From Clostridia bacterium (GTDB lineage Bacteria > Bacillota > Clostridia > Oscillospirales > Acutalibacteraceae): a stretch of 64,000 nucleotides of DNA. The position numbers and the translations under genes were made by a program. Below, in pieces: positions 21,088 through 58,134 of the stretch. The stretch spans positions 112,095 to 176,094 of the forward strand of contig JAFTUG010000007.1 in NCBI GenBank assembly GCA_017466365.1. The letters run 5' to 3'. How positions within the stretch are numbered: position 1 is the first letter of the stretch; each line of letters starts with the position of its first letter. The notes beneath the pieces were generated by a model, which searched no databases, was not told the DNA's origin, and saw only the letters and a list, made by a program, of their open reading frames with translations.

Positions 21088-21115
21088 TATCAAAATCAAC
21101 CTTTCCATGTAAATC

Positions 21116-21143
21116 AAGGTTGACCCCGAAAGGAGCCAACCTT
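21116..21143 (-). terminator. Hairpin downstream of galK
   Basis: AAGGTTG (21116-21122) pairs with CAACCTT (21137-21143) and the stem extends through CCCC/GGAG bases. There is no long T run, so it may be a weak terminator or an RNA-stabilising hairpin between galK and the M42 genes. Confidence 0.55.
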
Positions 21144-24308: not shown

Positions 24309-24337
24309 TTGATATAATAATATTATTATGTTATAAT
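24309..24337 (+). promoter_or_regulatory. Promoter of the radical SAM cluster, first unit
   Basis: TTGATA (24309-24314) and TATAAT (24332-24337) have a 17-base spacer. The leader to the ATG at 24368 is only about 23 bases and is dominated by an AAAGGAGG ribosome site. There is no room for a cobalamin riboswitch. Confidence 0.75.
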
Positions 24338-24367
24338 ATAGTGTATTTCTGCAAAGGAGGTTGAAAA

Positions 24368-25348
24368 ATGATAATTTCCCAAACGCCGGTAAGAATGTCG
24401 TTCTTCGGCGGTGGAACGGATTTTCCCGAATTTTTCAATGAACATTCGGGCGCCGTTATCTCAACAACCTTCAATAAATACTGCCATGTTATCGTAAGAC
24501 CCATGCCCGAAAAGCTTTTTGAATACAAAACAAAGCTTATTTATGCACAGACCGAAGAAGTAAGCTCCGTTGATGAAATAAAGCATCCCGCAATCAGAAA
24601 TGCAATGAAATGGCTCGGTCTTGAACGTATATTTCTCAACTACGATGCAGATATTCCCGCCAAAACAGGTTTGGGAACAAGCAGCGCTTTTTCAGTCGGC
24701 ATGCTAAATGCATTCTATACAATGCAGGGCATTGCCAAAACGAAGCGAGAGCTTGCGGATGATGCCATATATCTTGAACGCACTCTCTGCAGCGAGGAAG
24801 GCGGTATTCAGGACCAGATTGCGGCGGCATTCGGCGGCTTTAACCGAATTGATTTCAGTTCCGACGGATACACCGTTACACCGCTGAACATAGCCCCCGA
24901 AAGAAAGCAGCTTTTAAACGATAATCTCATGGTTTTCTTCACAGGGCTTTCCCGTTACTCATTTCAGGTGCAGAAAGCAACCAAAAGCATGCTCGGCAAA
25001 CGCACACATGAGCTGCTCGAAATTCTGCACATGGTTGATGATGCCGAAAAAATTCTTGTTGAACCTGACCGTTCTCTTGACGATTTCGGACTGATGCTCA
25101 ACGAAACATGGAAGCTTAAAAGAAGTATAAGCAGCGAAATTTCCAACACCATGATTGACGATATATACCGCAAGGCTCTCCTCTCGGGAGCTCTCGGAGG
25201 AAAATTGCTCGGAGCAGGCGGCGGAGGCTGCCTCCTGTTCTATGTTCCGAAAGAGAAGCAGGCTTCCGTACGTTCGGCTCTTTCAGACCTGCATGAGGTA
25301 GAATTTAAGTTTGAAAACGAAGGAACAAAGATAATTTGTAACTACTGA
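24368..25348 (+). CDS. hddA: D-glycero-alpha-D-manno-heptose 7-phosphate kinase-like GHMP kinase
   Basis: The 326-residue GHMP kinase has the HddA pattern: TPVRMSFFGGGTDFPEFF at the start, KTGLGTSSAFSVGMLNAF as the ATP-binding motif near residue 100, EGGIQDQIAAAFGG, and GGKLLGAGGGGCLLFY near the end. HddA phosphorylates heptose 7-phosphate at C1 in the alpha configuration, which leads to GDP-activated D-glycero-D-manno-heptose. It is the first gene after the cluster promoter with a perfect AAAGGAGG site. A fucokinase-like role is the main alternative; the nucleotidyltransferase/GmhB fusion two genes on favours heptose. Confidence 0.85.
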   Translation: MIISQTPVRMSFFGGGTDFPEFFNEHSGAVISTTFNKYCHVIVRPMPEKLFEYKTKLIYAQTEEVSSVDEIKHPAIRNAMKWLGLERIFLNYDADIPAKTGLGTSSAFSVGMLNAFYTMQGIAKTKRELADDAIYLERTLCSEEGGIQDQIAAAFGGFNRIDFSSDGYTVTPLNIAPERKQLLNDNLMVFFTGLSRYSFQVQKATKSMLGKRTHELLEILHMVDDAEKILVEPDRSLDDFGLMLNETWKLKRSISSEISNTMIDDIYRKALLSGALGGKLLGAGGGGCLLFYVPKEKQASVRSALSDLHEVEFKFENEGTKIICNY

Positions 25349-25359
25349 CGAGGTACATA

Positions 25360-25725
25360 ATGATAAAGATTATAAAACCCGATTTTATTTTTGAAGATGA
25401 ACGAGGCTCGCTTATTCAGCTTGTTCACGAGGGATATAAGCAGATAAACGTTGTAGAATCAAAAGCAGGCTTTGAGCGCGGAAATCATTATCACCGACTT
25501 AACCGTGAGGGTTTTTATGTTGTGAAAGGCTCTTTTACTCTCGAAGCAAAGCTTGACGGCAAAAAAGAGACCTATGATTTCAAAAAAGGTGATATGTTTA
25601 TCATTGAGCCGAATGTAATTCATCGTTTTATTTATCACGAGGATTCCGTGCTTGTTGCCTTTTATGATAACGGTGTTGAGTTGCCTGACGGCACAAAGGA
25701 TATAATTGCGGAGGCAGAGGCATAA
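25360..25725 (+). CDS. Small cupin protein of sugar-nucleotide type (WxcM/FdtA-like)
   Basis: The 121-residue single-domain cupin has the metal-binding pattern GNHYHRLNREGFYVVKGSF and a second motif VIHRFIYHE. The DERGSLIQLVHE start resembles WxcM/FdtA-type sugar-nucleotide isomerases and dTDP-sugar epimerases. It could isomerise or epimerise a GDP-heptose intermediate. It lies 11 bases after hddA, and its stop overlaps the start of the next gene (TAATG), so it is translated with the heptose genes. The reaction cannot be assigned by eye. Confidence 0.7.
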   Translation: MIKIIKPDFIFEDERGSLIQLVHEGYKQINVVESKAGFERGNHYHRLNREGFYVVKGSFTLEAKLDGKKETYDFKKGDMFIIEPNVIHRFIYHEDSVLVAFYDNGVELPDGTKDIIAEAEA

Positions 25726-26978
25726 TGGAAGCAATAATTCTCGCAGGAGGTCTTGGCACACGTCTTAAGCCCTGCGTTGAGAATCTGCCGAAGCCGCTCG
25801 CTCCGATTGACGGCAAACCTTTTCTCAATTACCTTCTTGATTATCTCTATGTAAACGGAGTTCACAGAGCGGTAATTTCAACAGGCTACAAGGCAGAAAC
25901 CATAGAAGAATATATCGGCAGGGCACACAGAGGAATGGTTGTTGACTACTGCAGAGAAGATACCCCTCTCGGCACCGGCGGAGCAATAAAAAAGGCTCTC
26001 GGAATGTGCAGAGAAAGCTGTGTTTGCGTTATAAACGGCGACACTTATTTTGATGTCAGCCTTCCCGAAATGAAAAGCTTTCACGATAATTCAGGATGCA
26101 AAATATCACTTGCCGCAAAATGGGTTGAAAATGCCGAAAACTCGGGATTCCTACGCCACGAAAACGGCAGACTCTGCGGTTTCCACGAAAAAGGAATTAT
26201 GTCGGCAGGTCTTATCAACGGCGGAATATATTTCATCGAAAAAGACGCTCTTGACGGCATAACCGAAGAAAAATTTTCACTTGAAAAGCAGATACTTGAA
26301 TCAGACTACTGCCCCGTTGCGGTTTATGAAAGCAACGGTTATTTTATAGATATCGGAATTCCCGAAAACTACAAAAAAGCAGAAAAGAATAAAGAAAAGC
26401 TTTTTTCAAAAAGAACACGCAAAGCTGTTTTTCTTGACCGTGACGGCACAATAAACCATGACACGGGTCATCTTTACCGCACGGAGGATTTTAAGTTTCT
26501 CGAAAATGCCGATAAAGCAATCGCAGAAATTAAAAGCAAGGGTTATCTTGCGATAATCATAACAAACCAGGCGGGAATTGCCAAAGGGCTTTACAAATCA
26601 GAGGATGTGGATATTCTCCACGCTCACATCGACTCTCTTCTTTTAAAAAACTTCGGAATTACGGCAGACGGTTATTATTACTGTCCGCACCACCCCGAAG
26701 CGGTGATTGAAGAATTAAAAAAAGAATGCCTTTGCCGCAAACCGAATGCAGGTCTTATTTTAAAAGCAGTTTCCGATTTTTCGGATATCGGAATTGAAAT
26801 CGACCTTAAAGGCTCATTTACGGCAGGAAACAAGCTGTCGGATGTTCTTGCGGGAATAAACGCCGGCACGGGTCAAAACATACTCATCGGGCAGGACGAG
26901 CCTGACACAGCCGATATTGCATCGGCTCATTACGAAAATCTTTATGATTTCTCTCAAAATTTAAAGCAGGTGTTATAG
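25725..26978 (+). CDS. Fused sugar-phosphate nucleotidyltransferase / HAD heptose-bisphosphate phosphatase (HddC-GmhB-like)
   Basis: The 417-residue protein joins two enzymes. Residues 1-225 are a nucleotidyltransferase with AIILAGGLGTRLKP, a LPKPLAPI segment and LGTGGAIKKAL. Residues 232-417 are a HAD phosphatase with Asp238/Asp240 in FLDRDGTINHD, IITNQAGIAKGLY, and the GmhB zinc-type cluster CPHHPEA...CLCRKPN. Together with HddA they would perform the last steps to GDP-D-glycero-alpha-D-manno-heptose: 7-phosphate removal and guanylyl transfer. The nucleotide (GDP rather than another) is inferred from the family. The isomerase GmhA is not in the cluster. Confidence 0.85.
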   Translation: MEAIILAGGLGTRLKPCVENLPKPLAPIDGKPFLNYLLDYLYVNGVHRAVISTGYKAETIEEYIGRAHRGMVVDYCREDTPLGTGGAIKKALGMCRESCVCVINGDTYFDVSLPEMKSFHDNSGCKISLAAKWVENAENSGFLRHENGRLCGFHEKGIMSAGLINGGIYFIEKDALDGITEEKFSLEKQILESDYCPVAVYESNGYFIDIGIPENYKKAEKNKEKLFSKRTRKAVFLDRDGTINHDTGHLYRTEDFKFLENADKAIAEIKSKGYLAIIITNQAGIAKGLYKSEDVDILHAHIDSLLLKNFGITADGYYYCPHHPEAVIEELKKECLCRKPNAGLILKAVSDFSDIGIEIDLKGSFTAGNKLSDVLAGINAGTGQNILIGQDEPDTADIASAHYENLYDFSQNLKQVL

Positions 26979-26979
26979 T

Positions 26980-28911
26980 TTGAAAAATATTTATTTTGTT
27001 CAGGCAGGCTTTGCGTTTGATAAATCCGTTTATCTGCCTTATGCAACGGGTACTATTGTTGCATACTGCAAAAGCCTTCCCGATATTGCAGCAGAATACG
27101 ATTTCAAGGAGATTATTTTCCGCAGAGACGATATCAATAAAATCGTTGACGGAATGGAATCTCCTTATATTGCTGCGTTTTCAACCTATGTTTGGAATGT
27201 TGAATTCAACAAGGCACTTGCAAAAGCGGTCAAGGAAAGATACCCCGAATGCATCATCATTTTCGGCGGTCACAGCGTTTCGGAAAGAATGGAATTTCTT
27301 GCCAAGGATTATATTGATATTCTGACTCTCGGCGAAGGCGAAGAGGTTACGGCAAGCCTTCTGCGCGCGCTTAAAAACGGCGATGATTTAAGCACATGCA
27401 ACGGCATCGCATACCGAGATGAAAGCGGTAACAGCATCCTCACCGCACCACATTGTCCCGAATCCGTTGAAAACTATCCTTCGCCTTATCTTACAGGGAT
27501 TTTCGATTCAATCATCGAAAAAAATCCCGATACAATGTTTGATACCATTATCGAAACAAATCGAGGCTGCCCCTATAACTGCGCATACTGCGACTGGAGC
27601 AACCACAAAAAGTTAAGGCTTTTCCCAATGGAAAAAGTCAAGGGCGAAATCAAATGGCTCTCCGAGCATAAAATCGAATACTGTTTCTGCGCCGATTCAA
27701 ACTTCGGTATGTTTGAACGTGACGTTGAAATTGCCGAATATATTGTTGAGCTAAACAAAAAAACGGGCTTCCCGAAGGTTTTCAGACCTTGCTACGAAAA
27801 AAACAGCGCAGAGAGAGTTTTCAAAATTTCCAAAACGCTCAACTCCAGAGGTCTTGATAAAGGTGCAACCATGGCATACCAAACTCTTTGCGATGAAGCA
27901 CTTAAAAATATAAACCGAAAAAATCTTACCATGGAGCATTTTTCGGGTCTTATGGCAGACTATACAAGAGCAAACATCCCCACTTATTCCGAGCTGATTC
28001 TCGGTCTGCCCGGTGAAACGGCGGAAAGCTTCTGTCAGGGGCTCTGCAAGCTTTTGAGAGCAGGTCAGCATAATTCAATAAGCGTTTATTACTGTGAGCT
28101 GCTTCCGAATGCGCCCATGTGTAAGCCCGATTACATGGAAAAATACCGTATTGAACCTATGAAGGTTCAATTTAATCATATTCATTCCGCAAGCGGCAGG
28201 AAAGACGGCATTCCCGAATATTCATACCTCGTCCGCTCAACGAGCACAATGCCCCGCGACGGCTGGGTATACGCAAATCTTTTCTCGATTTGCCTTCAAT
28301 GCTTCCACAGCCTCGGACTTTTCAGATATTTCGCAATTTATTCATACTATGAACTCGGCATTGACTACTATGATTTTTATAAAAAGCTTCTTGATTTCTG
28401 CCTTTCAGACGGCGGTCTTATAGGAAAGCTTTTCCGTGAGATAAAAGAAAAGCTGGACGGCTCTCTTGAGGGTGACTGGAATCACAGCAACCCCGTCTTC
28501 GGCAATATCACATGGTTTTTTGAAGAAGGTCTTTACCTTGAGATTCTTTATAACTTCAAGGAATTTGAAAAGCTTATCGAAAGCTTCATAAAGCCACTCG
28601 GAATCAGCGATAAAATATATCCCGAGCTTCGCAAATTCCAGATCAACGCAATCAAGCTGCCGTTTGAAGCAGGCAAAGAATTTGAATGCGCCTATGATTT
28701 TGCGGGTTATTTCCGTACTGTTGGTTCAGATAACGAAGTATCCTTAAAAAATCAGCCCGTTAAATATACTTTTACCGCACCGAAGGAATATGCGAACTGG
28801 ATTGACTTTGCAAAAGAAACCGTGTGGTACGGTCGCCGTAAAGGTGCAACACTTTACACAAACAATACGGCATCGGTAAACATTCAGAAAATTATTGCGA
28901 AAGGCTCGTGA
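26980..28911 (+). CDS. B12-binding-type radical SAM protein, long class, subclass N (copy N1)
   Basis: The 643-residue protein starts at a TTG one base after the previous stop. Residues 1-130 form a cobalamin-binding-like Rossmann domain (KNIYFVQ, FSTYVWNVEFNKALAKAVK, IIIFGGHSV, LGEGEE) without the cobalt-ligating DxHxxG. The radical SAM core carries CX3CX2C at Cys197/201/204 (TNRGCPYNCAYCDW). Two extra cysteines lie at 237 (CADSNFG) and 271 (PCYEKN). The C-terminal part has LILGLPGE, RAGQH and a helical region ending in WYGRRKGATLYT. Such enzymes use adenosyl radicals, often with methylcobalamin. Substrate unknown. Confidence 0.85.
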   Translation: MKNIYFVQAGFAFDKSVYLPYATGTIVAYCKSLPDIAAEYDFKEIIFRRDDINKIVDGMESPYIAAFSTYVWNVEFNKALAKAVKERYPECIIIFGGHSVSERMEFLAKDYIDILTLGEGEEVTASLLRALKNGDDLSTCNGIAYRDESGNSILTAPHCPESVENYPSPYLTGIFDSIIEKNPDTMFDTIIETNRGCPYNCAYCDWSNHKKLRLFPMEKVKGEIKWLSEHKIEYCFCADSNFGMFERDVEIAEYIVELNKKTGFPKVFRPCYEKNSAERVFKISKTLNSRGLDKGATMAYQTLCDEALKNINRKNLTMEHFSGLMADYTRANIPTYSELILGLPGETAESFCQGLCKLLRAGQHNSISVYYCELLPNAPMCKPDYMEKYRIEPMKVQFNHIHSASGRKDGIPEYSYLVRSTSTMPRDGWVYANLFSICLQCFHSLGLFRYFAIYSYYELGIDYYDFYKKLLDFCLSDGGLIGKLFREIKEKLDGSLEGDWNHSNPVFGNITWFFEEGLYLEILYNFKEFEKLIESFIKPLGISDKIYPELRKFQINAIKLPFEAGKEFECAYDFAGYFRTVGSDNEVSLKNQPVKYTFTAPKEYANWIDFAKETVWYGRRKGATLYTNNTASVNIQKIIAKGS

Positions 28912-28915
28912 CTTT

Positions 28916-30850
28916 TTGAAAAAAAATTTATATTTTTTTCAAGTGAATTATTCTTACGGTAAATCCGCCCATCTCCCATATACGGCGGGTCATATTTCCG
29001 CATACGCATTTGCGGATAAGGATGTTGCAGAAAACTACCGACTTGAAAATATATTTTTTCTTCGTGAACCGATTGACAGTCTCCTTGATAAAATCGAAAA
29101 TCCGTCCGTTGCGGCTTTTTCAACCTATATTTGGAATTGCAATTTCAACAAAGAGGTTGCAAGAAGGATAAAAGAAAAATATCCCGAATGCGTAGTTATC
29201 TTCGGCGGTCATCATGTGGCACCGGGCGGAGATATGCTTAACGACTGCCCTTATATCGATTATCTTCTTCACGGCGAAGGCGAAATAATTTTCCGCAGGC
29301 TTCTGCGTTCGTTAATCGGTCTTGAAAAAGCAGAAGAAATTCCCGGTATTTCATTGAGAACAGCCGACGGGATTCTCACAAATCCGCAGATGATATCCGA
29401 TGAATGCGATTTCCCCTCACCCTATCTTAACGGATATTTCGATAAGATTCTTGCCGAAAATCCCGATACAGATTTTATGGCACTTATCGAAACTTCAAGA
29501 GGCTGCCCGAATTCATGCGCTTATTGCGATTGGAGCAACATGAAATCAAAAATCCGAAAATTCCCGATTGAAAGAATTTACGGTGAGATTGAATGGCTCA
29601 GCGAAAGACATGTTTACGGTTTGGGAAGTGCCGATTCAAACTTCGGAATGTTCAAGCGTGACGAGGAAATAACCGATAAAATCGTTGAGGCAAAGAAAAA
29701 GCACGGATATCCGGTGGGTTTTCAGACTTCTTACGCAAAAAACAGTACCCGGACCGTTTTCAACATAGGTCTTAAGCTTGAAAAAGCAAGAATGAACAAA
29801 GGGATAACCCTTTCGTTTCAGTCTATGAGCAGAGAAACACTCAAAAACATCGGCAGAGAAAACATCAGCATCGAATACTACTCCGAGCTGATGGATTTAT
29901 ATAATAAAGCAGGCATCGCAACCTATACGGAGCTTATCATGGGGCTGCCGGGTGAAACTTATGAAAGCCTTGTTGACGGTGTGGACGAGCTTTTAAGGCT
30001 GGGTCAGCACAATTCTATTTATTTTCACAACTGCGAATGGCTGCCCTGCTCTATAATGGGGCAAAAAAATTATATTGAAAAATATAAAATCAAAGCCTCC
30101 CACATTCCGCTTCATCAGCCTCATAGAGAAACCGAGGATGCGAACGATATTCCCGAGGAATCAAGCATTGTCACCTCTACTTATTCAATGGATGAGAACG
30201 ACTGGAAAAAAATGAATCTTTTCTCCGCTGCGGTTCACTCCTGCCATCACATGGGGCTTTTGCAGTTTTTCGCTCTCTATCTTTATAATGAGGGCTTGTG
30301 TTCATACAAAGAATTTTATTCCTCGCTTCTTGATTTTGCACTTTCCCATCCTGATACAGTTATAGGCGCAGTGTTCAAAAAAATCGGTCAGAAGCTTGAC
30401 ATGGTTTTGAGTGAAACGGGCACATTATGCTGCACCGACGAAAGATTCGGCACCGTTCAGTGGCCGTTTGAGGAATATGCATATCTTTGCATGGTTTATG
30501 ATTATGAAAAATTCTACAGTGAAATTGACGAATTCCTTTCAGGCTTCGGAATAGAAAATGAAACATATATTCAGCTTTTCGGCTTCCAGAAAGCTATTAT
30601 AAAAAAGCCGTTTGACGAAACAATTCACATCGAGGCTTCATGTGATTTTGTTGACTATTTTATGAAGCTTCTCGACGGTAAAAAAGCGGAGCTGAAAAAA
30701 GAAAGCATTTGTCTTGATTTTGAGACAAAGCCCTTTGACTCATGGCATATGTTTGCCAGAATCGTTGCATGGTACGGAAGAAAAGACAGCTTCAGCACCT
30801 ATATAAAGCAAGCACATTTGAAACGGAGTAATTCAGAAAATGTTAAGTAA
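28916..30850 (+). CDS. B12-binding-type radical SAM protein, long class, subclass S (copy S1)
   Basis: The 644-residue paralogue has the same layout. The TTG at 28916 aligns the product with its siblings (KKNLYFFQVNYS) and places the cluster cysteines at 197/201/204, as in copy N1, so I reject the longer reading from 28895. The motif is TSRGCPNSCAYCDW. The positions of the two subclass-N cysteines are Ser (GSADSNFG) and Ser (QTSYAKN). The tail WYGRKDSFSTYIKQ differs from subclass N. It begins four bases after the N1 stop and its end overlaps N2. It lacks the cobalt-ligating His motif. Confidence 0.83.
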   Translation: MKKNLYFFQVNYSYGKSAHLPYTAGHISAYAFADKDVAENYRLENIFFLREPIDSLLDKIENPSVAAFSTYIWNCNFNKEVARRIKEKYPECVVIFGGHHVAPGGDMLNDCPYIDYLLHGEGEIIFRRLLRSLIGLEKAEEIPGISLRTADGILTNPQMISDECDFPSPYLNGYFDKILAENPDTDFMALIETSRGCPNSCAYCDWSNMKSKIRKFPIERIYGEIEWLSERHVYGLGSADSNFGMFKRDEEITDKIVEAKKKHGYPVGFQTSYAKNSTRTVFNIGLKLEKARMNKGITLSFQSMSRETLKNIGRENISIEYYSELMDLYNKAGIATYTELIMGLPGETYESLVDGVDELLRLGQHNSIYFHNCEWLPCSIMGQKNYIEKYKIKASHIPLHQPHRETEDANDIPEESSIVTSTYSMDENDWKKMNLFSAAVHSCHHMGLLQFFALYLYNEGLCSYKEFYSSLLDFALSHPDTVIGAVFKKIGQKLDMVLSETGTLCCTDERFGTVQWPFEEYAYLCMVYDYEKFYSEIDEFLSGFGIENETYIQLFGFQKAIIKKPFDETIHIEASCDFVDYFMKLLDGKKAELKKESICLDFETKPFDSWHMFARIVAWYGRKDSFSTYIKQAHLKRSNSENVK

Positions 30851-32765: not shown

Positions 32766-32779
32766 TAAGGAGGAACGAA

Positions 32780-34612: not shown

Positions 34613-34640
34613 AAGAAATTCAGATAATTGGTGAATAAAA

Positions 34641-36566: not shown

Positions 36567-36582
36567 AAGGAGCAATTTCCGC

Positions 36583-39182: not shown

Positions 39183-39196
39183 GAAAGCGTGTTAAA

Positions 39197-39940
39197 ATGT
39201 CCGAATTCAAAGGTGTTTCGCTGATGATGGGCGCTGTCAGCGAAACGGAATCACTCCGCCAGACGGTCAGCACCCTTCTTGAGGTCTGCGACCATAAAGA
39301 CATAAGCGAAATAATAATAGGTTATGCACAAAGAATAACTCCCGAATGCCTTGCAACGGTTAAAGAAATCGCCTCTACTGAATGCGACGTACCCATTGTT
39401 GTTTTTGAACAGAAAAGACCGTTCATGTCAGGCATAAATGATATGATTGATGTTGCAATAGGCTCGCATTGCCTTCTTGTAGCATCAGACATGGCTCTTG
39501 ATTTAAGCATTGTTCCGACCATGATTGATCAGGCAAAGAAAGAACCTGATGTTATTCATTCGGCATCACGCTGGATGAAGGGCTGCAAATTTTATGACTA
39601 CGGTAAGCTCAAGCGAGTTATCAACTTCTGTGCCCAGAAATTTCTTGCGGTTCTTTATATGCGTAACCTTACTGATTTTACCATCCCCGTTCAGATTGCG
39701 CCCTCGGAGCTTTATAAATCAATCAAATTTGAGGAACCGGGATTTCCGTTTCTGCTTGAAATGGTTTTAAAGCCCATACGTCTTGGCTATAAATTCAAGG
39801 AATATCCCACCAACTGCTATCCGAGAAAAGACGGCAAATCGAGCAACTCCGTAAAACAGATTGCTTCCTATCTCCGCGTGGCTCTTCACATAAGATTTAT
39901 GCCGAAAAAGAATATCCTTTTGGAGGAATACCGAAAATGA
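39197..39940 (+). CDS. Family 2-like glycosyltransferase
   Basis: The 247-residue protein resembles the catalytic domain of dolichol-phosphate-mannose-synthase-like GT2 enzymes: an N-terminal VSLMMGAVSETESLRQTVSTLL strand-helix, a metal region SDMALD where DxD is expected, and the closing YPTNCYPRKDGKSSNS. No transmembrane helix is seen, so it is soluble or peripheral. It probably transfers the activated sugar of this cluster to a carrier or scaffold. The ATG at 39197 follows a weak site; an upstream in-frame start at 39140 overlaps the reductase gene and is unlikely. Confidence 0.75.
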   Translation: MSEFKGVSLMMGAVSETESLRQTVSTLLEVCDHKDISEIIIGYAQRITPECLATVKEIASTECDVPIVVFEQKRPFMSGINDMIDVAIGSHCLLVASDMALDLSIVPTMIDQAKKEPDVIHSASRWMKGCKFYDYGKLKRVINFCAQKFLAVLYMRNLTDFTIPVQIAPSELYKSIKFEEPGFPFLLEMVLKPIRLGYKFKEYPTNCYPRKDGKSSNSVKQIASYLRVALHIRFMPKKNILLEEYRK

Positions 39941-41772
39941 AAACACTCTTTATCCTGCCGCCGCAATGGTATCCGATGAGTCCATATCTTTCTGCGGCAC
40001 AGCTCATCGGTCAGTTCCGTAAAAACGGACTTGATGCTTGTGCGAGGGATTTGAATATTGAATTCTTTAACGATATCCTCACAAAAGAAAATGTTTTATC
40101 GGCATATAAAAATGCCAAAGCATTTTTTGAAGGATTTTCCGTAGAAGTAAAATCAAAAGGCTATTGCGAAGAAAAATTCAATGAATACAGCCGCGAAATA
40201 AAAACCAAGCTTCTCCGCTTTGTTGCCTGCTCGGAATTTTTAGGTCAGAACAATATCCGTGCAGAGGATGTTGCCGAAAGAATTGAGGATGCGGTAGCCG
40301 TAATGAAAGACCCCGAGCGTTTCTATGACCCCGAACAGCTTTTCGAGGCAAAAGATACGCTTATGGATGCATTAAAAATAATTTCTCTGCCCTTTATGCC
40401 GAGCAGAATTCAGCTCGACAACTTCATCGCAAACCCGGTTTACTCCTATGATTACGAGGATATCAAGCTTCAGTGCAATGATTCCGATATCAATATGTTT
40501 GTTGATTATTTTGACAAAAAAATCAAAGCAGAGGAGTTTTCCGAATATTCCGTTATAGGAATAAGCATCTGCGATTTAAGTCAGGTTATTCCCGGCCTGA
40601 CTGCAGCGAAATATCTTAAAGAAAGAACAGCTGCACATATAACTCTCGGCGGCAACTATATTTATAAAATCCGTGAATCACTTAAAAAAATTCCCGAATT
40701 TTTTGATATTTTCTGCGATTCCGTTCAGATTGGCGACGGCGAAATTGCAGCCGTAACTCTTGCCGAAACAATTCGTGACAATGCACCGCTTGAAAATGCA
40801 TATTCACTGATTTATAAAAACGAAAACGGCGAGGTTAAAGAAACAGAAACTGCACCGCTTCTTGATATGGATTCGCTTGCGCCTCCTTGCTTTGACGGTT
40901 ATGATTTCAGCCAATATTTTTCCGCTGACACGGTTATGCCTGTTCAGCTTTCAAAAAGCTGCTATTGGGCAAAATGCACCTTCTGCGATTTCTACACGGG
41001 TCAGCAATGCTTTGATATCAAGAGCGTTAATCACGCCGTTGACGAGGTTGAGCATCTTGTCAGCAAATACGGATTCAGGCATTTTATTTTCGTTGACGAA
41101 GCTGTTCCGCCTAAATATTATAACGAGCTTGCACTTGAGATAATTCGCAGAGGAATAAAAATAAACTTCTATTCCTTCCTGCGCCTTGAAAAAACCTTCA
41201 CCAAGGAAATTCTTCAGAATCTCTATGATGCAGGTGCAAGATATTTTGCATGGGGATATGAGGCCGAATCCGAGAGAATAATGACCCTGCTCAACAAGGG
41301 AATTGACTGCAAGAGCAGAAAAAGAATCCTTACGGATGCAAAAGAAGTTGGTCTTTGGAATATGTGCACCTTCCTTCTCGGCTATCCGGGAGAAACTCCC
41401 GAAGAAGCGGAAGCAACCAAGGAAACTATCCGCAACCGTGACCTTATCAACAGCTGTACACCGTCTAATTTTGCACTTAAGAAAAATGCCCTGCTCATCA
41501 AAGAAACCGATGATGCAGGTATAAAAAATATTGTTGATAACGGTGAATTTCATATTTCGTGTAATTACGAAATCAATGGCAAACAAACACAGAATATTAA
41601 GAAGGACCGCATGTCATTCCAGGCGGATTTTCTTCACAAAACGGCAGACTCCTTATGGTCTCTCACCTTTTCTGATACCGACCACATTCTGCTCTATCTT
41701 TCAAAATACGGCGCAGACTGGGTTTATAATTATAAGCTAAAATATAAAAAGCATAATTTTAACGGTACATAA
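39937..41772 (+). CDS. B12-binding-type radical SAM protein, short class (copy A2)
   Basis: The 611-residue paralogue of the gene at 32780 shares KTLFILPPQWYPMSPYLSAAQLIGQF, the helical insert, TLGGNYIY, IGDGE, then CYWAKCTFC with Cys342/347/350 (CX4CX2C), FVDEAVPPKYYN and SDTDHILLYLSKYGADW. The two short-class proteins are alignable along their whole length. The ATG overlaps the glycosyltransferase stop and GGAGG lies before it. It closes the first transcription unit at a strong terminator. Confidence 0.83.
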   Translation: MKTLFILPPQWYPMSPYLSAAQLIGQFRKNGLDACARDLNIEFFNDILTKENVLSAYKNAKAFFEGFSVEVKSKGYCEEKFNEYSREIKTKLLRFVACSEFLGQNNIRAEDVAERIEDAVAVMKDPERFYDPEQLFEAKDTLMDALKIISLPFMPSRIQLDNFIANPVYSYDYEDIKLQCNDSDINMFVDYFDKKIKAEEFSEYSVIGISICDLSQVIPGLTAAKYLKERTAAHITLGGNYIYKIRESLKKIPEFFDIFCDSVQIGDGEIAAVTLAETIRDNAPLENAYSLIYKNENGEVKETETAPLLDMDSLAPPCFDGYDFSQYFSADTVMPVQLSKSCYWAKCTFCDFYTGQQCFDIKSVNHAVDEVEHLVSKYGFRHFIFVDEAVPPKYYNELALEIIRRGIKINFYSFLRLEKTFTKEILQNLYDAGARYFAWGYEAESERIMTLLNKGIDCKSRKRILTDAKEVGLWNMCTFLLGYPGETPEEAEATKETIRNRDLINSCTPSNFALKKNALLIKETDDAGIKNIVDNGEFHISCNYEINGKQTQNIKKDRMSFQADFLHKTADSLWSLTFSDTDHILLYLSKYGADWVYNYKLKYKKHNFNGT

Positions 41773-41775
41773 CAG

Positions 41776-41813
41776 AAAACATCCTATGATTTTTCGTCAT
41801 AGGATGTTTTTTT
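41776..41813. terminator. Bidirectional terminator between A2 and the SDR epimerase gene
   Basis: AAAACATCCTATGA (41776-41789) pairs perfectly with TCATAGGATGTTTT (41797-41810) and T runs follow on both strands. It ends the 17-kb first unit. Confidence 0.93.
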
Positions 41814-42747
41814 ATATGTTGGAAAATTTGTTGTTTTTTATAATCTGATAAGCTTTGATAAGCTCCTTTATGCCGTCATCAAGGGAATACTCGGGCTTCC
41901 AGCCGAGGCTTTCAATTCTCTCGTTTGAAACAATGTAGTTTCTCTTATCGGGGTCTTCACCGACAGGGGCTTCAATATAAACAAACTTCGGTAAAATCAG
42001 CTTGATTTTTTCACAAAGCTCAATTTTTGAAAGGTTGGAATCGGAAAGACCGCAGTTGTGGGTATTTCCTTCCATCTTTTCAAAATTCTCAATCGCAAAC
42101 CAAAAGGCATTCGCCGCATCACGCACATGAAGATAATTTCTTTTGAAGCTGCCCTCAAAAATAACGATTGTACGGTCAAACACCGCTCTGTAAACAAAAT
42201 CGTTAACAAGAAGGTCCGTCCTCATTCTCGGAGATGCACCGAAAAGAGTTGCAAAACGGAATGCAGTGGTATTGCATTCGTTAAGCACTGCCGCTTCCGC
42301 TTCAACCTTGCTCTTTCCGTAAATGGAAATCGGCTTTATGGGAGATTTTTCCGTGCAGAAATTTTCGCCTTCGCCCAAGCCGTAGCCGCTGTTGGTGCAG
42401 GGAAAAATAATTCTCTGGGATTTATCTCTCAAACGCAAAATCATTTTGATTGCATCGAGATTTATCGAGTAAGCAGAGCAAGCCTCTTTATCACAAATGG
42501 GAAAGCCGGCAAGTGCCGCAAGAGGAATTATATAATCCTTGCCCTTCATTGCTGCGGCAACCTCTTTTTCGTTGCGTGCATCGGCATTTATCATTTCAAA
42601 ATTCGGATTGGCGCAGCATTCAAGCAGAGGGCTTTGGTTATAGAAAAGGTTATCAAGAACAGTAACCTTGCACCCCTTTGATAAAAGCAGAGGAACAAGC
42701 ACGGAGCCTATGTATCCTGCGCCGCCCGTAACAAGTATATTAAGCAT
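41812..42747 (-). CDS. NAD-dependent epimerase/dehydratase (extended SDR)
   Basis: The 311-residue SDR has NILVTGGAGYIGSVLVPLLL at the N-terminus, the YGKSK active-site Tyr/Lys, the upstream TNSGYG Ser, and the late WKPEYSLDDGIKELI. It would epimerise, dehydrate or reduce a nucleotide sugar, most simply one made by the neighbouring heptose genes. The ATG at 42747 follows AAGGAAGTGA and the predicted promoter; the longer reading to 42819 extends across that promoter and is rejected. It is divergent from radical SAM copy N3. Confidence 0.87.
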   Translation of the reverse strand: MLNILVTGGAGYIGSVLVPLLLSKGCKVTVLDNLFYNQSPLLECCANPNFEMINADARNEKEVAAAMKGKDYIIPLAALAGFPICDKEACSAYSINLDAIKMILRLRDKSQRIIFPCTNSGYGLGEGENFCTEKSPIKPISIYGKSKVEAEAAVLNECNTTAFRFATLFGASPRMRTDLLVNDFVYRAVFDRTIVIFEGSFKRNYLHVRDAANAFWFAIENFEKMEGNTHNCGLSDSNLSKIELCEKIKLILPKFVYIEAPVGEDPDKRNYIVSNERIESLGWKPEYSLDDGIKELIKAYQIIKNNKFSNI

Positions 42748-42769
42748 ATATTTCACTTCCTTATCGAAT

Positions 42770-42798
42770 ACTTTACCATATTTTTTAATGTTAGTCAA
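42770..42798 (-). promoter_or_regulatory. Promoter of the SDR epimerase gene
   Basis: On the minus strand TTGACT (42798-42793) and TAAAGT (42775-42770) have a 17-base spacer. Its -35 lies 14 bases from the -35 of the divergent promoter. Confidence 0.65.
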
Positions 42799-42812
42799 TA
42801 AACCTAAAAGAT

Positions 42813-42841
42813 TTGACATTCACTATTTAAGGTATTATAAT
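42813..42841 (+). promoter_or_regulatory. Near-consensus promoter of the second radical SAM unit
   Basis: A perfect TTGACA (42813-42818), a 17-base spacer and a perfect TATAAT (42836-42841) lie 31 bases before the ATG at 42872. Confidence 0.85.
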
Positions 42842-42871
42842 ATAAATATTAATATGGAAAGGTGTGCGGTT

Positions 42872-44803
42872 ATGAAAAACATTTATTTTGTTCAGGCAAA
42901 TAATGTTTACGGTAACACCCGTCATTCTGTTTATATCCCATATGCTTCGGGCTGTATTGCCGCCTACGCCTTTGATAACGAAAAAATCAAAAATTCCTGC
43001 CGACTTGCAGGCTTTATTTATACACATGAGCCGATAAAAACAGCTGTTTCAAAGCTTACCGACCCGTTTATTGTTGCGTTTTCCTGCTCTGTGTGGAATT
43101 ATGAATATAATAAAGCTCTTGCAAAAGAAATAAAAAAAGCTTATCCCGAAGCGGTTATAATATTCGGCGGTCACAATGTACTGCGGGATTTTGAAACCTT
43201 TGAGGAATGCCCTGAAGCTGACATACTGATTTACCGCGAAGGCGAAGAAGCTTTCCGTCAGGTTGTTCTTTCGCTTCTCGAAAACAAAGAACCCCGCTCT
43301 GTTTCCAACATTGCATATAAATCAGGCGGTAAATATATAAAAACCAAAGAAGAAGCGTTCTGCCTTAACGAATATCCTTCACCGTATCTGAACGGTATTT
43401 TTGACGGCATTGCAGATGAAAACGTAAGCTTTTCCGCCATAATAGAAACAAACCGCGGCTGCCCCTTCAAATGCGCTTTCTGCGACTGGGGTACGCTCGG
43501 CAGCAGGGTAAGACTTTTTCCGATGGAGCGCATAAAAGCCGAGCTTGACTGGATTGCTGAACATAAAATCGAGTATGTTTACTGCGCCGATGGCAATTTC
43601 GGAATAGTCGACCGTGACGAGGATATTGCCGAATATATAATTTCGTTGAAAGAAAAAACAGGATATCCTCAAAACTTCAGGGTATGCTTCACCAAAAACA
43701 GAACGGATTTCGTAAAAAAAATCTGCATGAGGTTTAATAAACACGGGCTTGATAAGGCGCAGACACTTTCTTTCCAAAGTCTCTCCCCGGTTGTGCTTGA
43801 AAATATCGGCAGAAAAAATATCTCGCTCGAGCATTTTCGTGAGCTTATGAATGAATATAACCGTCTTGGTATTTCAACCTCATCCGAATTAATTCTCGGT
43901 TTGCCCGGCGAAACCCGTGAAAGCTTTACAAAAGGTCTGTGTGATTTGCTTGAATACGGTCAGCACAAGGCAATTCAGGTTTACACCTGTGATTTGCTTC
44001 CGAATTCAGAAATGGGTTCTCCCGAGTTTGTTGATAAATTCGGAATAGAAACAGTAAAAACACCGTTTTCGCAGGCACATTGCAGTGCTAACCAAAAACA
44101 CGAGATACAGGAATATAACTCAACCGTCATAAAAACAGCATCTCTCAATACGGATGACTGGATTTTCTGCGTTGCGTTTGCCTGCATTGTTCAGGCTTTT
44201 CACAACATCGGATTTTTCAGGGCGGTTGCTATATATCTCCGAAACGAACTTAATATCAGCTATTATGATATTTATTCAAAAATTGCTTCATTTTCGCAAA
44301 ACCCGCAAAACAAAGCCTGCCACAGTGTTTTCTCACTGATTACAAGCCTTACATCGGGCATGTCGCAGGGTAAAAACTCCTGGGCAGTTTCCTGCGAAGG
44401 GCTCGGAGAAATCTGCTGGCAGTTTGATGAAATATATTTTCTTAAGAGCCTTGAAAAAGCGGATGAATTATATAACGAGCTTGAAGCGTTTATCAAGGAA
44501 AGCTTTCCGTTTGACGAAAAAATTAATGCTTTGTTTGACTATCAGCGCAGCATTCTCAAAAGATACGGAATAAAAAGCAAGCATGAAATAAAATGCGATT
44601 ACGATTTTTACGGATACTTCAGTAAAATATACAAGGGAGATTATTCTTCTCTTGAAAAGAAAGAAAATATTATATCTTTCAGCGACGGTATGTCATGCGC
44701 CGATTTATATGAATACGCATGCAAGGTAATATGGTACGGACGCAATCAGTCTGCTGCACTTTACACCTCGGACTGTTATAAACCCGAAATAAAATATTAT
44801 TAA
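42872..44803 (+). CDS. B12-binding-type radical SAM protein, long class, subclass N (copy N3)
   Basis: The 643-residue paralogue starts at the ATG at 42872 (KNIYFVQANNVY) behind GGAAAGG. The 68-codon upstream extension crosses the promoter and is rejected. Its motif TNRGCPFKCAFCDW has Cys197/201/204, and the subclass-N cysteines are at 238 (CADGNFG) and 272 (VCFTKN), again 34 apart. It continues with LILGLPGE and YGQHK, and ends WYGRNQSAALYTSDC. It heads a separate transcript with its own strong promoter. Confidence 0.86.
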   Translation: MKNIYFVQANNVYGNTRHSVYIPYASGCIAAYAFDNEKIKNSCRLAGFIYTHEPIKTAVSKLTDPFIVAFSCSVWNYEYNKALAKEIKKAYPEAVIIFGGHNVLRDFETFEECPEADILIYREGEEAFRQVVLSLLENKEPRSVSNIAYKSGGKYIKTKEEAFCLNEYPSPYLNGIFDGIADENVSFSAIIETNRGCPFKCAFCDWGTLGSRVRLFPMERIKAELDWIAEHKIEYVYCADGNFGIVDRDEDIAEYIISLKEKTGYPQNFRVCFTKNRTDFVKKICMRFNKHGLDKAQTLSFQSLSPVVLENIGRKNISLEHFRELMNEYNRLGISTSSELILGLPGETRESFTKGLCDLLEYGQHKAIQVYTCDLLPNSEMGSPEFVDKFGIETVKTPFSQAHCSANQKHEIQEYNSTVIKTASLNTDDWIFCVAFACIVQAFHNIGFFRAVAIYLRNELNISYYDIYSKIASFSQNPQNKACHSVFSLITSLTSGMSQGKNSWAVSCEGLGEICWQFDEIYFLKSLEKADELYNELEAFIKESFPFDEKINALFDYQRSILKRYGIKSKHEIKCDYDFYGYFSKIYKGDYSSLEKKENIISFSDGMSCADLYEYACKVIWYGRNQSAALYTSDCYKPEIKYY

Positions 44804-44820
44804 GAAAAGTGGGATAGATT

Positions 44821-45753
44821 ATGTTATCAAAACTTCCGAAAATTTCAAAGGAGCTGCTTATCACGGGTCTGATTATATTTGCAGCCTTTAACTTCAGATC
44901 GGCTTTTTCCTTTACTCAAGGTGTTGTTTTTGCACCGAGAAACATTATATACATGCTTATTTCATCCGTTCCTTTTACAATTCTTATCACCTCAAAGCTT
45001 TCCGCAAATTTCAAAAAAGAGCTTAAAGCGGTTGATATAGCAGCCATAGCTGTTATTCTTTATACACTCGCAGTAATTCTTCACGACACGGTAATGAGAT
45101 ACTCTGTTCTTACCGGTGTTTGTTTTGTTGCTGTTTCACTGCTTCTTTGCAACAGCATATATGCTCTCCCCGTTGCTGCCGTGCTTAATCTTATAGGCTC
45201 GTTCAAATTCGGATACGCCGCAGTATTTTCAGTTCCCGTCACAATATGCCTTTCAATGGTCTGCTTCTCCTATCTCTTTGAAAAGAAAAAGATCAAAACA
45301 AGCAAGAAATCAAAGAAATCGGAATCCGTTAACCCTCTCCCCGATTATAAAAAAGAAAAAATCATCTTTGCCGTAAGCGAACTTGTGCTTTTTGCGGCAC
45401 TTGCCGTTATGATTTATTACAGAAAGTACACAATTGCACTTATCACTTTCAGATCCAACCTCGAATACATAATTCCCATGCTTATCCCCGCAATCTGCTT
45501 TATAATTTTTGCGGTGCTTGCAATAAAGAACAAGAGACCCTTCATGGAAGTGATCGGATATCTTACTGTAATCGGCACAATGCCTCTTACACAGCTTTGC
45601 GAATACAGCACGGCTGCAGGAGGTGTATGGACAGCATTTACCCTTTTGTTTGCACTTTGCGATTCAAGCCTTGATTCGGGTAAGAGCGTTAATAACGTTT
45701 ATGAAAAAATCATTGCAAAAATAAGTGCAAAGCATAAAACCGCCAAGGAATAA
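44821..45753 (+). CDS. Multi-pass membrane protein of unknown function
   Basis: The 310-residue protein has about eight hydrophobic helices in two groups. They are split by a charged cytoplasmic-looking stretch near residues 158-180 (KKIKTSKKSKKSESVNPL). I do not recognise the family. It sits 17 bases after N3 and 25 bases before S3 in the same transcript, so it probably takes part in the same pathway, for instance in moving or anchoring a lipid-linked intermediate. No flippase, polymerase or ligase motif is visible. Confidence 0.75.
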   Translation: MLSKLPKISKELLITGLIIFAAFNFRSAFSFTQGVVFAPRNIIYMLISSVPFTILITSKLSANFKKELKAVDIAAIAVILYTLAVILHDTVMRYSVLTGVCFVAVSLLLCNSIYALPVAAVLNLIGSFKFGYAAVFSVPVTICLSMVCFSYLFEKKKIKTSKKSKKSESVNPLPDYKKEKIIFAVSELVLFAALAVMIYYRKYTIALITFRSNLEYIIPMLIPAICFIIFAVLAIKNKRPFMEVIGYLTVIGTMPLTQLCEYSTAAGGVWTAFTLLFALCDSSLDSGKSVNNVYEKIIAKISAKHKTAKE

Positions 45754-45778
45754 TCGGTTAATCAAGGAGTTGGAATTT

Positions 45779-47704
45779 TTGAGTATCGCAAAAAACGTTT
45801 ATTTTGTTCAGGTTGACGTTTCATCGGGCAAAAATTCAAAGGTTGTATATTTGCCGTATACCTCGGGTGTTATAATTGCAAACGCATTTAAAAATCCCGC
45901 TGTCAAAGAATCGTATAATTTTAAAGATTTTATTTTTATAAGAAAAAAGGTCGAAGAAGTTACGGCAGAAATGGAGAATCCCTCGGTTGTAGGATTTTCA
46001 AACTATTGCTGGAATACGGAATACCATCTTGCACTTGCAAAAGAAATAAAGAAAGCTTTTCCGGAATGCATAACTGTTTTCGGCGGCCACAACATTCCGC
46101 AGGACACTTCTTTTCTTGAAGAAAATCCGCAGGTTGACATTCTTTGCTTCGGTGAAGGAGAAGTAACCTTCGGCAATCTGCTTGAAGCCTTGAGCAAAGG
46201 AAGCATTGCAGAGGTTGCCAATATAGCATACAAAGATAAGAACGGTTTTGTGTTAACCGAAAAGAAATCAATTTGCAGAACGGATTATGCTTCACCCTAT
46301 CTTGACGGATGGTTTGACAGCTTTTCGGAAAAATATCCGGATTATGAGTTCAACACAATACTTGAAACCAGCAGAGGCTGCCCGAATTCCTGCGCCTACT
46401 GCGATTGGGGACCGCTCAAAGAAAAAACAAGATTCTTTCCGCTTGAAAAGGTGCTGTCCGAAATAGAGTGGATAGGTCAGCACAAAATCGGCTTTGTTTG
46501 GGGCGCAGATGCTAACTTCGGCATAGGCAAAAATGACCTTGAGATTGCCGATGCTCTTGTTGCCGCAAAAGAAAAATACGGTTATCCCGAAAGGGTCAGA
46601 ATAAACTATTCAAAGGGCAACTCCGAACGTGTGCGCGAAATAGTCCGCCGCTTTAACCGAAAAGGCGTTGACAGAGAGGGTGCAACAATTTCTCTGCAAA
46701 GTCTTTCCCCCGTTGTGCTTGAAAATATCGGCAGAAAAAATATGTCGCTTGATAAATTCAGGGAGCATTTCAGCGTTTATCACGAAGAAAAGCTTCAGGT
46801 TTATTCCGAGCTGATACTTGGTCTGCCGGGCGAAACCTATGACAGCTTTGCAGACGGCATCTGCAAACTTTTTGAAATAGGTCAGCACTTCATTTTTGAG
46901 GTTTACCATTGCATAGTCCTTCCGAATTCACAGCTCGGTCAAAAGGATTATATCGAAAAACATGGCATAAAAACCTCCCGCACCGAAATAGTTCGTTTTC
47001 ATTGCACGGCGGATGCATATTATATCCCTGAAAAAACCGATATCATAATTGAAACAAACACCATGCCGTGCGAAATGTGGCAAAAAAGCTCGCTCTTTAC
47101 TGCCGTTACGCAAGCGATGCATGCATGCGGACTGCTCCGATGCTTTGCAATTTATGCTTTCAATGAGCTTGGAATCGGCTACAGAAGCTTTTACGAGGGG
47201 CTTATGCGATATGTTGAAAACGGTAACGCACCGTTCTTTGAAACACTTTATAAGACCGTTAAAGCTTCATTTGAAAGCCTTGCGAAAGGTGAAAATCCCC
47301 GTTTCTTTGTTCCTTTTGCAGGTAATCTTGTCTGGGACCATTATGAATACATGTTCCTTCATATCAGCGGCAGCTTCGACAAATTTTATGATGAAATGAT
47401 GCCGTATTTAGGCTCTGTTATTAAAGATGAAAACGTTCTTTCGCAGCTTCTTGCCTATCAGAAGGCAATTGTAAGGAAACCCGATGAAGCTGTTTCGGAA
47501 TGCGTAACAGATTATGATTTCCACAGCTATTTTAAAAATATTTACGTTAACAAATATGCCCCTCTTGAAAAAGGTCACTTCAAAACCGTTTTCAAGGACA
47601 GCGACACCGTTTCCGGTTGGGAAGAATTCGGCAAACGGGTTGTATGGTACGGTAAAATGGGCAGTAAATCCTATAAGGACAATGCAAAAATAATAAAAAT
47701 ATAA
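45779..47704 (+). CDS. B12-binding-type radical SAM protein, long class, subclass S (copy S3)
   Basis: The 641-residue paralogue starts at a TTG (45779) preceded by AAGGAG at proper spacing, giving SIAKNVYFVQVDVS. An 18-codon longer reading into the membrane-protein gene is not needed. TSRGCPNSCAYCDW carries Cys201/205/208; the subclass-N cysteines are replaced (WGADANFG, RINYSKG). The protein ends WYGKMGSKSYKDN. A strong terminator closes the unit. Confidence 0.85.
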   Translation: MSIAKNVYFVQVDVSSGKNSKVVYLPYTSGVIIANAFKNPAVKESYNFKDFIFIRKKVEEVTAEMENPSVVGFSNYCWNTEYHLALAKEIKKAFPECITVFGGHNIPQDTSFLEENPQVDILCFGEGEVTFGNLLEALSKGSIAEVANIAYKDKNGFVLTEKKSICRTDYASPYLDGWFDSFSEKYPDYEFNTILETSRGCPNSCAYCDWGPLKEKTRFFPLEKVLSEIEWIGQHKIGFVWGADANFGIGKNDLEIADALVAAKEKYGYPERVRINYSKGNSERVREIVRRFNRKGVDREGATISLQSLSPVVLENIGRKNMSLDKFREHFSVYHEEKLQVYSELILGLPGETYDSFADGICKLFEIGQHFIFEVYHCIVLPNSQLGQKDYIEKHGIKTSRTEIVRFHCTADAYYIPEKTDIIIETNTMPCEMWQKSSLFTAVTQAMHACGLLRCFAIYAFNELGIGYRSFYEGLMRYVENGNAPFFETLYKTVKASFESLAKGENPRFFVPFAGNLVWDHYEYMFLHISGSFDKFYDEMMPYLGSVIKDENVLSQLLAYQKAIVRKPDEAVSECVTDYDFHSYFKNIYVNKYAPLEKGHFKTVFKDSDTVSGWEEFGKRVVWYGKMGSKSYKDNAKIIKI

Positions 47705-56555: not shown

Positions 56556-56564
56556 AATATCTCC

Positions 56565-57983: not shown

Positions 57984-58010
57984 TTTATCACTCCATTTCT
58001 TATCTTCTTT

Positions 58011-58039
58011 ATTTTAATGTATAACGGAAATATATTCAA
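58011..58039 (-). promoter_or_regulatory. Promoter of the GH30-GH39 operon
   Basis: On the minus strand TTGAAT (58039-58034) and TAAAAT (58016-58011) are 17 bases apart. It is back to back with the sdpR promoter. Confidence 0.6.
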
Positions 58040-58061
58040 GTATTATTTTAGCAACAATATA

Positions 58062-58090: not shown

Positions 58091-58092
58091 TC

Positions 58093-58112: not shown

Positions 58113-58134
58113 GTTAAATAACGGAGATGTGCAA

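Follow-up and report, generated by a model that had tools for sequence, protein, structure and literature searches.

INTRODUCTION

To our knowledge, the C-methylation of unactivated carbons is known from single enzymes or small sets of them, for the most part in antibiotic pathways. Besides TokK and CysS, ThnK and KedN5 are cobalamin radical S-adenosylmethionine (SAM) methylases. We describe here a locus that encodes six long and two short radical SAM proteins, in a stretch of 64,000 nucleotides of a Clostridia bacterium of the Acutalibacteraceae (assembly GCA_017466365.1, contig JAFTUG010000007.1, positions 112,095 to 176,094), called the window in the following and numbered from its first letter. 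The closest described relatives of the six long proteins are TokK and CysS. In published accounts (PMC9692996, PMC12846815), TokK is described as carrying out three successive methylations, CysS as likewise iterative, and the lower axial face of the cobalamin as filled by a tryptophan (W76 in TokK, W75 in CysS). The long proteins share with these enzymes near full-length homology (with TokK, including much of the C-terminal domain), the CX3CX2C motif, and both common tryptophans. TokK and CysS belong, however, to the carbapenem and cystobactamid pathways, whereas the proteins described here form separate clades and are encoded six side by side with sugar-activation genes.

The route to GDP-D-glycero-D-manno-heptose comprises GmhA, HddA, GmhB, and HddC. 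HddA-, GmhB-, and HddC-like domains are adjacent in the window too, but there HddC is fused to GmhB, the fusion is followed by radical SAM genes, and a GmhA was not clearly found. GDP-heptose, GDP-fucose and, for dolichol-phosphate-mannose synthase (DPMS), GDP-mannose are all GDP-sugars. DPMS and ArnC-type synthases are matched by the profile of the family 2 glycosyltransferase (GT2) of the window over nearly the whole length of that profile; the GT2 differs in lacking the first Asp of the DXD motif and in sitting in radical SAM loci. Systems of the ArnC/ArnT or GtrB/GtrX type likewise combine a polyprenyl-phosphate sugar synthase and a polytopic membrane protein in one locus; the membrane protein of the window, in contrast, matches no recognized family, and no counterpart of the radical SAM battery is known to us in such systems.

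In gentamicin biosynthesis, the C-methylation of a sugar carbon by the radical SAM enzyme GenK is described (PMC4039129); GenK is a single enzyme of an aminoglycoside pathway, whereas a battery with a lipid-sugar synthase is present here. Literature joining radical SAM or cobalamin enzymes with heptose, glycans, polysaccharides, rumen clusters, sugar C-methylation, or neighborhood networks was searched (with subscription journals mostly beyond reach), and no such locus was found. The TokK class itself is known; as far as these searches go, the combination of GDP-sugar modules, a DPMS-like enzyme, and a six-fold diversification of the TokK class is undescribed. On balance, and by a modest measure, the sequences lead us to favor a pathway built from modules, whose product would be a C-methylated sugar linked to polyprenyl phosphate and exported to the cell surface.

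RESULTS

The long radical SAM proteins and the TokK/CysS class

The profile of the long proteins contains 69 sequences, hand-picked from the 106 left after filtering for redundancy (75%) and for length. In a search of the PDB, it matches TokK (7kdx) with E 2e-158 (532 bits, profile positions 5–584 of 640) and CysS with E 3e-92 (313 bits, positions 20–494); the next match is OxsB, at E 1e-9. All 69 aligned rows, the six window proteins among them, have the CX3CX2C motif and also the Trp under the cobalt (W75 of the long family, which corresponds to position 76 when counted along the TokK alignment). The Trp at +2 from the last cluster Cys (W215 in TokK) is present in 68 of the 69 rows, again with all six window proteins. 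Among the 186 long open reading frames (ORFs) of at least 450 amino acids, the text pattern RGCx3Cx2CxW matches 179 and the pattern SxxxWN, for the lower-axial Trp, matches 161. The best NCBIfam model for the long proteins is that of KedN5 (NF033712, with the best stretch in the first ~500 residues); with scores of 236–275 bits against a cut-off of 700, their filing under the KedN5 subfamily was rejected. The sequence features examined thus place the long proteins in the TokK/CysS class of cobalamin radical SAM methylases.

All eight proteins match PF04055, in agreement with the original prediction of eight radical SAM genes. That prediction also gave all eight a cobalamin-binding-like N-terminal domain. 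The B12-binding family PF02310 is matched by the six long ones (E 4e-6 to 2e-9, over the cut-off in three of six), by the first short one with E 0.026 only, and not by the second. The eight do not all fall in one characterized family with a known product: the long six form separate clades in the TokK/CysS class, with no known product, and the short pair stays below the cut-off of every NCBIfam model.

The short proteins carry a CX4CX2C motif (in all 24 short ORFs of at least 450 amino acids) and a region of ~150 residues before the part that can be aligned with the long ones (hhalign, 365 columns at 98% probability, the aligned part of the short family starting at residue 148). Their matches to solved structures are weak (9ccb, 5e-9; OxsB, 1e-7), and the best NCBIfam match of both is TIGR03975, a family for ribosomally synthesized and post-translationally modified peptides (RiPPs), with 117.5 and 111.2 bits. 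They form an unassigned family of putative cobalamin-binding enzymes.

Six old paralogs

Among themselves, the six long proteins of the window are 36–46% identical, whereas the best ortholog of each elsewhere is 78–90% identical to it. A tree was built of 167 long proteins, taken from the window and from loci fetched from metagenome-assembled genomes (MAGs; the loci are numbered with L), and the six stand in it at six separate places. Four of them have, as the largest clade free of other window paralogs, a node with a support of 0.94–1.0 and 11–28 loci; the corresponding deep node is weakly supported in the case of long 2 (0.02) and long 5 (0.67), with the near orthologs still grouped at support 1.0. 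Orthologs of long 1 directly follow HddC in L017, L018, L019, L021, L037, L038, and L041. Pairwise dN/dS (ratio of nonsynonymous to synonymous substitution rates) between the window and its close relative L017 is 0.04–0.17, a rough estimate with synonymous sites near saturation, and points to purifying selection on the long genes. Judged by these comparisons, the paralogs are old, each with its own orthologs in other gut Clostridia, and did not arise by recent copying.

In the organism's own genome, a search with one long protein gave, beyond the locus, only one partial match of 27% identity and no extra long copy; the presence of eight such genes in 21 kb is thus not due to chance.

Long clades and sugar-activation modules

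Among 36 congeners (numbered with G), 19 have strong long matches (best E <1e-150) and 17 are without (best E 1e-5 or weaker); this set overlaps with the fetched loci, G027 and L017 having the same coordinates. The GmhB domain of the window fusion passes its curated model (Table 1). HddC-GmhB-like proteins of at least 188 bits occur in 16 of the 19 long-positive congeners and in none of the 17 long-negative ones, always less than 2 kb from a long gene (in G006 and G014, the match covers the HddC half only).

In six clostridial loci (L044, L052, L063, L067, L072, L076), HddA and HddC are replaced by one large FKP-like protein, which falls in the kinase cluster of HddA. Those of L052, L063, L067, and L076, the four that were scanned, contain a PF07959 fucose pyrophosphorylase and a GHMP kinase domain, and those of L052, L063, and L067 match the bifunctional fucokinase/GDP-fucose NCBIfam model below its cut-off; the FKP labels of L044 and L072 are given by cluster and length only. 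On account of this replacement in six loci, four of them confirmed by Pfam, the idea that heptose is the sole sugar was rejected. Over 71 loci, the window included, 6 are FKP-like, 18 heptose-type (14 of them clostridial; the labels of L081, L084, and L086 are unsure, that of L082 was checked), and 47 neither; none has both modules in one slice.

When the module label is placed on the tree of the long proteins (20 clostridial loci), it changes 4 times; 3000 shuffles among loci gave 17.2 changes on average and never fewer than 7. The shuffles treat the loci as independent, with several loci sharing one MAG (L020/L041, L046/L052). Host relatedness could lie behind part of this match between clades and modules. 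On contig JAFLUL010000007.1, however, an FKP-type part (L052) is followed 8 kb on by an SDR/cupin-type part (L046; SDR, short-chain dehydrogenase/reductase), each with its own DPMS-like gene (the L046 slice, which ends with the contig, contains no HddA or HddC). The three long proteins of L052 group with other FKP loci, and the three L046 proteins that the tree includes group with heptose-type or unlabeled loci. With such a split within one contig, host relatedness is unlikely as the whole cause of the match. Since the long clades follow the sugar module, the sugar is the likeliest substrate of the long enzymes, rather than a lipid or a peptide; no other observation speaks for it as strongly.

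A DPMS-like glycosyltransferase beside the long genes

The GT2 profile, built from 32 of 41 DPMS-like sequences, matches dolichol-phosphate-mannose synthase (5mlz) with E 1.6e-23 over profile positions 5–234 of 246, and ArnC-type enzymes with E 1.5e-12. By hand comparison, DPMS-like GT2 proteins of more than 250 bits are present in 19 of 19 long-positive congeners and in 0 of 17 long-negative ones. The 21 copies in congeners all lie within ~2.5 kb of a long gene, and 19 of them within 100 bp. The distance is also below 100 bp for 34 of the 41 DPMS-like genes of the window and L017–L086. In the window, it is 2574 bp, because redox genes and a short radical SAM gene lie between.

Distribution, partner genes, and cassettes

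A contig scan for long homologs gave 558 confirmed stretches, the best 80 of which represent 70 distinct loci. Among these best 80, the carriers are Clostridia and Oscillospiraceae MAGs (many from ruminant gut, one from horse, some perhaps from termite), with a few Alphaproteobacteria (Reyranella, Rhodospirillales, Kordiimonadales, and others) and one acidobacterium at 30–33% identity. In an even sample over the phylum, with at most three candidates scored per genome, 1 of 398 genomes matched at E 1e-60, and this was the organism's own. In L082, L083, L084, L079, and L085 (Alphaproteobacteria and the acidobacterium), a single long homolog lies beside SDR genes; some of these loci add HddA/HddC-like and RfbH-like genes (L082) or, by look, aldo/keto-reductase- and E1-dehydrogenase-like genes. 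Going by such neighbors, these single homologs sit as in surface sugar loci.

Genes were clustered over 81 loci (the window and L007–L086; L008–L016 are short slices that partly repeat other loci). The most frequent partner is the DPMS-like gene (42 loci), followed by the SDR (23), membrane protein 3 (the family of the polytopic protein at 47753–48979; 20), HddA or FKP-like (20), HddC-like (18), cupin (13), CrtI-like (6), and flavin/2Fe-2S genes (5). L017 has the gene order of the window minus the two short radical SAM genes, the CrtI-like gene, and the flavin/2Fe-2S gene. In L018 and in L059, two short genes are present and the redox pair is missing. L041, with the same kinds of flanks, has only HddA, cupin, HddC-GmhB, a long 1 ortholog, a membrane protein, the SDR, and membrane protein 3, the DPMS block of its MAG being on another contig (L020). 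The short radical SAM genes and the CrtI-like/flavin genes are optional cassettes. On the tree of the DPMS-like proteins, short-bearing loci require 4 changes (shuffle mean 9.1, with 0 of 2000 shuffles as low; host relatedness is not removed in this comparison).

Between the window and L017, long 1, 2, 3, 5, and 6 are 80–90% identical, whereas long 4 is 68% and the DPMS-like protein 60% identical; on the DPMS-like tree, the window groups with L018/L059 (support 0.97) and not with L017. The higher divergence and the tree position fit an exchange of the middle block. An empty chromosomal site was sought with the two flanking genes in 36 genomes (the own genome, 22 congeners, and 13 of the same order) and none was recovered; in the five long-negative congeners with both flanking genes, the two are on different contigs.

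Some related loci contain further genes. A third class of radical SAM proteins (490–506 amino acids, CX3CX2C), absent from the window, is present in eight of them (L033:7630-9108, L020:5622-7109, L036:3919-5430, L022:15663-17141, and also L018, L025, L035, and L059); in L020, a DUF362/4Fe-4S protein (4478-5605) precedes the gene for the 495-residue member beside the long block. Four tandem copies of membrane protein 3 adjoin a long radical SAM gene at L036:11954-16994, as if one per step. Large secreted-looking proteins of 1.1–2.3 thousand amino acids are encoded at the long loci L032 (2875-9819), L034, L072 (7883-11179, with fibronectin III and Big_2 repeats), and L046/L052, where L046:1-4194 and L052:18556-21890 are one gene seen in two slices. 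Such proteins could be acceptors of the sugar.

Gene inventory and surroundings of the locus

The genes of the locus are collected in Table 1; the eight radical SAM genes, assigned from the ORF listing and family scans, lie within 26980–47704. The twelve genes from HddA (24368) to short radical SAM 2 (41772) are separated by gaps of at most 28 bp, which makes one long operon plausible. The minus-strand SDR gene sits between the two plus-strand groups, convergent with short radical SAM 2 and separated from long 5 by a divergent gap of ~124 bp, beyond which there are three plus-strand genes (42872–47704). The polytopic protein gene on the minus strand closes the locus and is counted as a member by its conservation in relatives. 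No Pfam family is common to the 20 members of its family that were scanned, and its best PDB match has E 0.41. In G+C-rich loci, the longest-ORF calling used here overlooks some genes, such as the long genes of L081 and L086, or makes them too long.

Table 1. Genes of the radical SAM locus, with positions in the window
Feature	Position	Strand	Evidence
HddA-like GHMP sugar kinase	24368..25348	+	PF00288/PF08544; NCBIfam HddA 139.7 bits, cut-off 600
Cupin, putative sugar-biosynthesis type	25360..25725	+	PF07883 E 3e-11; cluster 6, 13/81 loci
HddC-like guanylyltransferase fused to GmhB-like 7-phosphatase	25725..26978	+	HddC 191.2 bits (cut-off 300); TIGR00213 151.6 bits (cut-off 149.6)
Long radical SAM 1, TokK class	26980..28911	+	PF04055, profile match, tree, conserved residues
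Long radical SAM 2, TokK class	28895..30850	+	PF04055, profile match, tree
Long radical SAM 3, TokK class	30840..32765	+	PF04055, profile match, tree
Short radical SAM 1, CX4CX2C, B12-radical-SAM-like family	32780..34612	+	PF04055; TIGR03975 117.5 bits, cut-off 281.85
Long radical SAM 4, TokK class	34641..36566	+	PF04055, profile match, tree
CrtI/CrtISO-like FAD oxidoreductase	36583..38130	+	PF01593 2e-20; carotenoid isomerase model 107 bits, cut-off 587
Flavin/2Fe-2S reductase	38127..39182	+	PF00111, PF00970
DPMS-like GT2, candidate polyprenyl-phosphate sugar synthase	39197..39940	+	ATG ~39197 inside listed ORF 39140-39940; 5mlz match
Short radical SAM 2, CX4CX2C	39937..41772	+	PF04055; 48% identical to short 1
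SDR sugar epimerase/dehydratase	41812..42747	-	PF01370 1.7e-29; listed ORF to 42819, likely start ~42747; cluster 2
Long radical SAM 5, TokK class	42872..44803	+	Listed ORF from 42668, homologous ATG 42872; PF04055, tree
Membrane protein, ~7 hydrophobic segments	44821..45753	+	Hydropathy; no Pfam or NCBIfam match
Long radical SAM 6, TokK class	45725..47704	+	PF04055, profile match, tree
Polytopic membrane protein, candidate glycan transferase	47753..48979	-	Cluster 3, 24 genes in 20/81 loci

In the family scans, the HddA-, cupin-, HddC-GmhB-, CrtI-, FAD/2Fe-2S-, and GT2-like assignments of the original prediction hold. Its plus-strand genes are as it gave them; it had omitted the minus-strand SDR and the membrane protein that follows long 6. 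It had proposed a glycan or lipid-linked sugar containing heptose. The lipid-linked sugar pathway gains support from the DPMS-like character of the GT2, and the heptose-type activation genes are indeed present; heptose is not the sugar throughout, given the FKP-like loci. The order of the locus, which it had named as a check, is kept in relatives such as L017, with modular differences.

The genes outside the locus look ordinary. On the left, it is flanked by genes for a 2-hydroxyacid dehydrogenase and a VTT-domain protein, with galactokinase-like and M42-type peptidase genes recognized by sequence look only; two tandem M42-type aminopeptidase-like genes are seen in this way at 19050–21117, with an overlap of 86 bp as listed. 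On the right, an amino-acid-type ABC transporter (the binding protein by family scan, the remainder by look) is followed by glycosyl hydrolases, those at 54879–62360 being of the GH39, GH30, and GH2 families and accompanied by YhcH-type and SdpI genes. One cobalamin riboswitch was found in the own genome and counts in favor of the pathway proposed below.

DISCUSSION

In the surface sugar pathway that we favor, HddA, GmhB, and HddC would, going by their families, convert heptose-7-phosphate into GDP-heptose, and the SDR and the cupin would shape the heptose. The DPMS-like GT2 would, by homology, transfer the sugar from GDP to polyprenyl phosphate. Before or after this transfer, the six TokK-class enzymes, each of its own old orthogroup, would methylate unactivated carbons of the sugar, with both reaction and positions predicted. 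Further radical or redox changes would come from the short radical SAM pair and from the CrtI-like and flavin enzymes, and the polytopic proteins may flip the product or transfer it to an outer acceptor. Because related strains carry different sets of long enzymes, their methylation patterns would differ as well. A wider view can be offered only tentatively: the loci may constitute a combinatorial system in which a TokK-class battery, with cassettes exchanged among gut Clostridia, writes strain-specific methyl patterns on polyprenyl-phosphate sugars derived from GDP-heptose or GDP-fucose, a class of branched surface sugars chemically unseen so far.

Several observations weigh against the proposed pathway. 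The HddA- and HddC-like proteins score below the curated cut-offs (Table 1), each of these models being the best NCBIfam match of its protein. A GmhA over the cut-off was found in 0 of the 60 genomes searched, the own genome included (79.6% complete, with 25.3 bits only); SIS proteins of 84–142 bits are present in 17 of 19 long-positive congeners but also in 10 of 17 long-negative ones. Three of the 19 long-positive congeners (G013, G029, G032) are without an HddC-GmhB-like match. For the HddC-like part of L028 and L082, other nucleotidyltransferase models score higher than HddC. In the fetched stretches, 47 of 71 loci show neither sugar module and 31 of 71, the window included in the count, have no DPMS-like gene; many of these loci are truncated at a contig end or divided between two slices. 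Finally, the first Asp of DXD is not kept in the GT2. The second one (Asp 117, aligned with the second Asp of DAD) is kept in 32 of 32 sequences, with S, A, or G directly before it in 32 of 32 and with P, A, S, T, and G as the commonest residues at column 115. The conservation of only the second Asp counts against a fully canonical enzyme.

Instead of a surface glycan, the product could be a small diffusible glycolipid, similar to an antibiotic or a signal, whose core derives from a sugar and is heavily C-methylated; we regard this as rather unlikely. TokK and CysS, the two solved relatives with strong matches, act in antibiotic pathways, the loci are patchy and strain-variable, and a glycan polymerase family was met in 0 of the 38 window proteins scanned against Pfam (the window holds further ORFs). 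A DPMS-like gene with polytopic proteins, however, fits a membrane-anchored donor, and the large secreted-looking proteins lie beside some of the loci (L032, L034, L052/L046, L072).

It is improbable that the long enzymes methylate a lipid (polyprenol or acyl chain), with the sugar genes supplying a head group and the CrtI-like protein saturating or desaturating the lipid. The CrtI-like FAD oxidoreductase of the window would suit such a role, and hopanoid- and ladderane-type B12 radical SAM models are among the weak NCBIfam matches of the radical SAM proteins, but the CrtI-like gene occurs in only 6 of 81 loci and the long clades track the sugar module, even within one contig. An equally low probability is given to non-methylating radical chemistry on the sugar (OxsB-like ring contraction, epimerization, or carbon insertion) by some of the long or by the short enzymes. 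The CX4CX2C motif of the short family and its weak matches to 9ccb and OxsB speak for it, and class 1 cobalamin radical SAM enzymes include the non-methylating OxsB (PMC13331322). The long proteins, in contrast, keep the signature residues of TokK and CysS and match both far better than OxsB.

A RiPP pathway, with the radical SAM proteins modifying a ribosomal peptide, would agree with TIGR03975 as the best match of the short proteins; it is very improbable and was rejected, since the cut-off of that model is not reached and there is little room for a precursor, the gaps between listed genes being at most 63 bp except for the ~124 bp between the SDR and long 5 (no search was aimed at small ORFs), and sugar-activation partners recur beside the long genes. 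Least probable of all, a recent tandem amplification of one redundant gene, as several similar genes side by side might suggest, was rejected on the six separate tree positions, the 36–46% paralog versus 78–90% ortholog identities, and the dN/dS values with their sign of purifying selection.

With a C-methylated, polyprenyl-phosphate-linked surface sugar as the preferred product, the six old paralogs, encoded beside GDP-sugar genes and a lipid-sugar synthase, are a set of TokK-class enzymes provided by nature, and the sites on which they act probably differ. The pathway predicts undescribed sugars on gut bacteria, and these could bear on recognition by phages, by the immune system, and by glycosidases.

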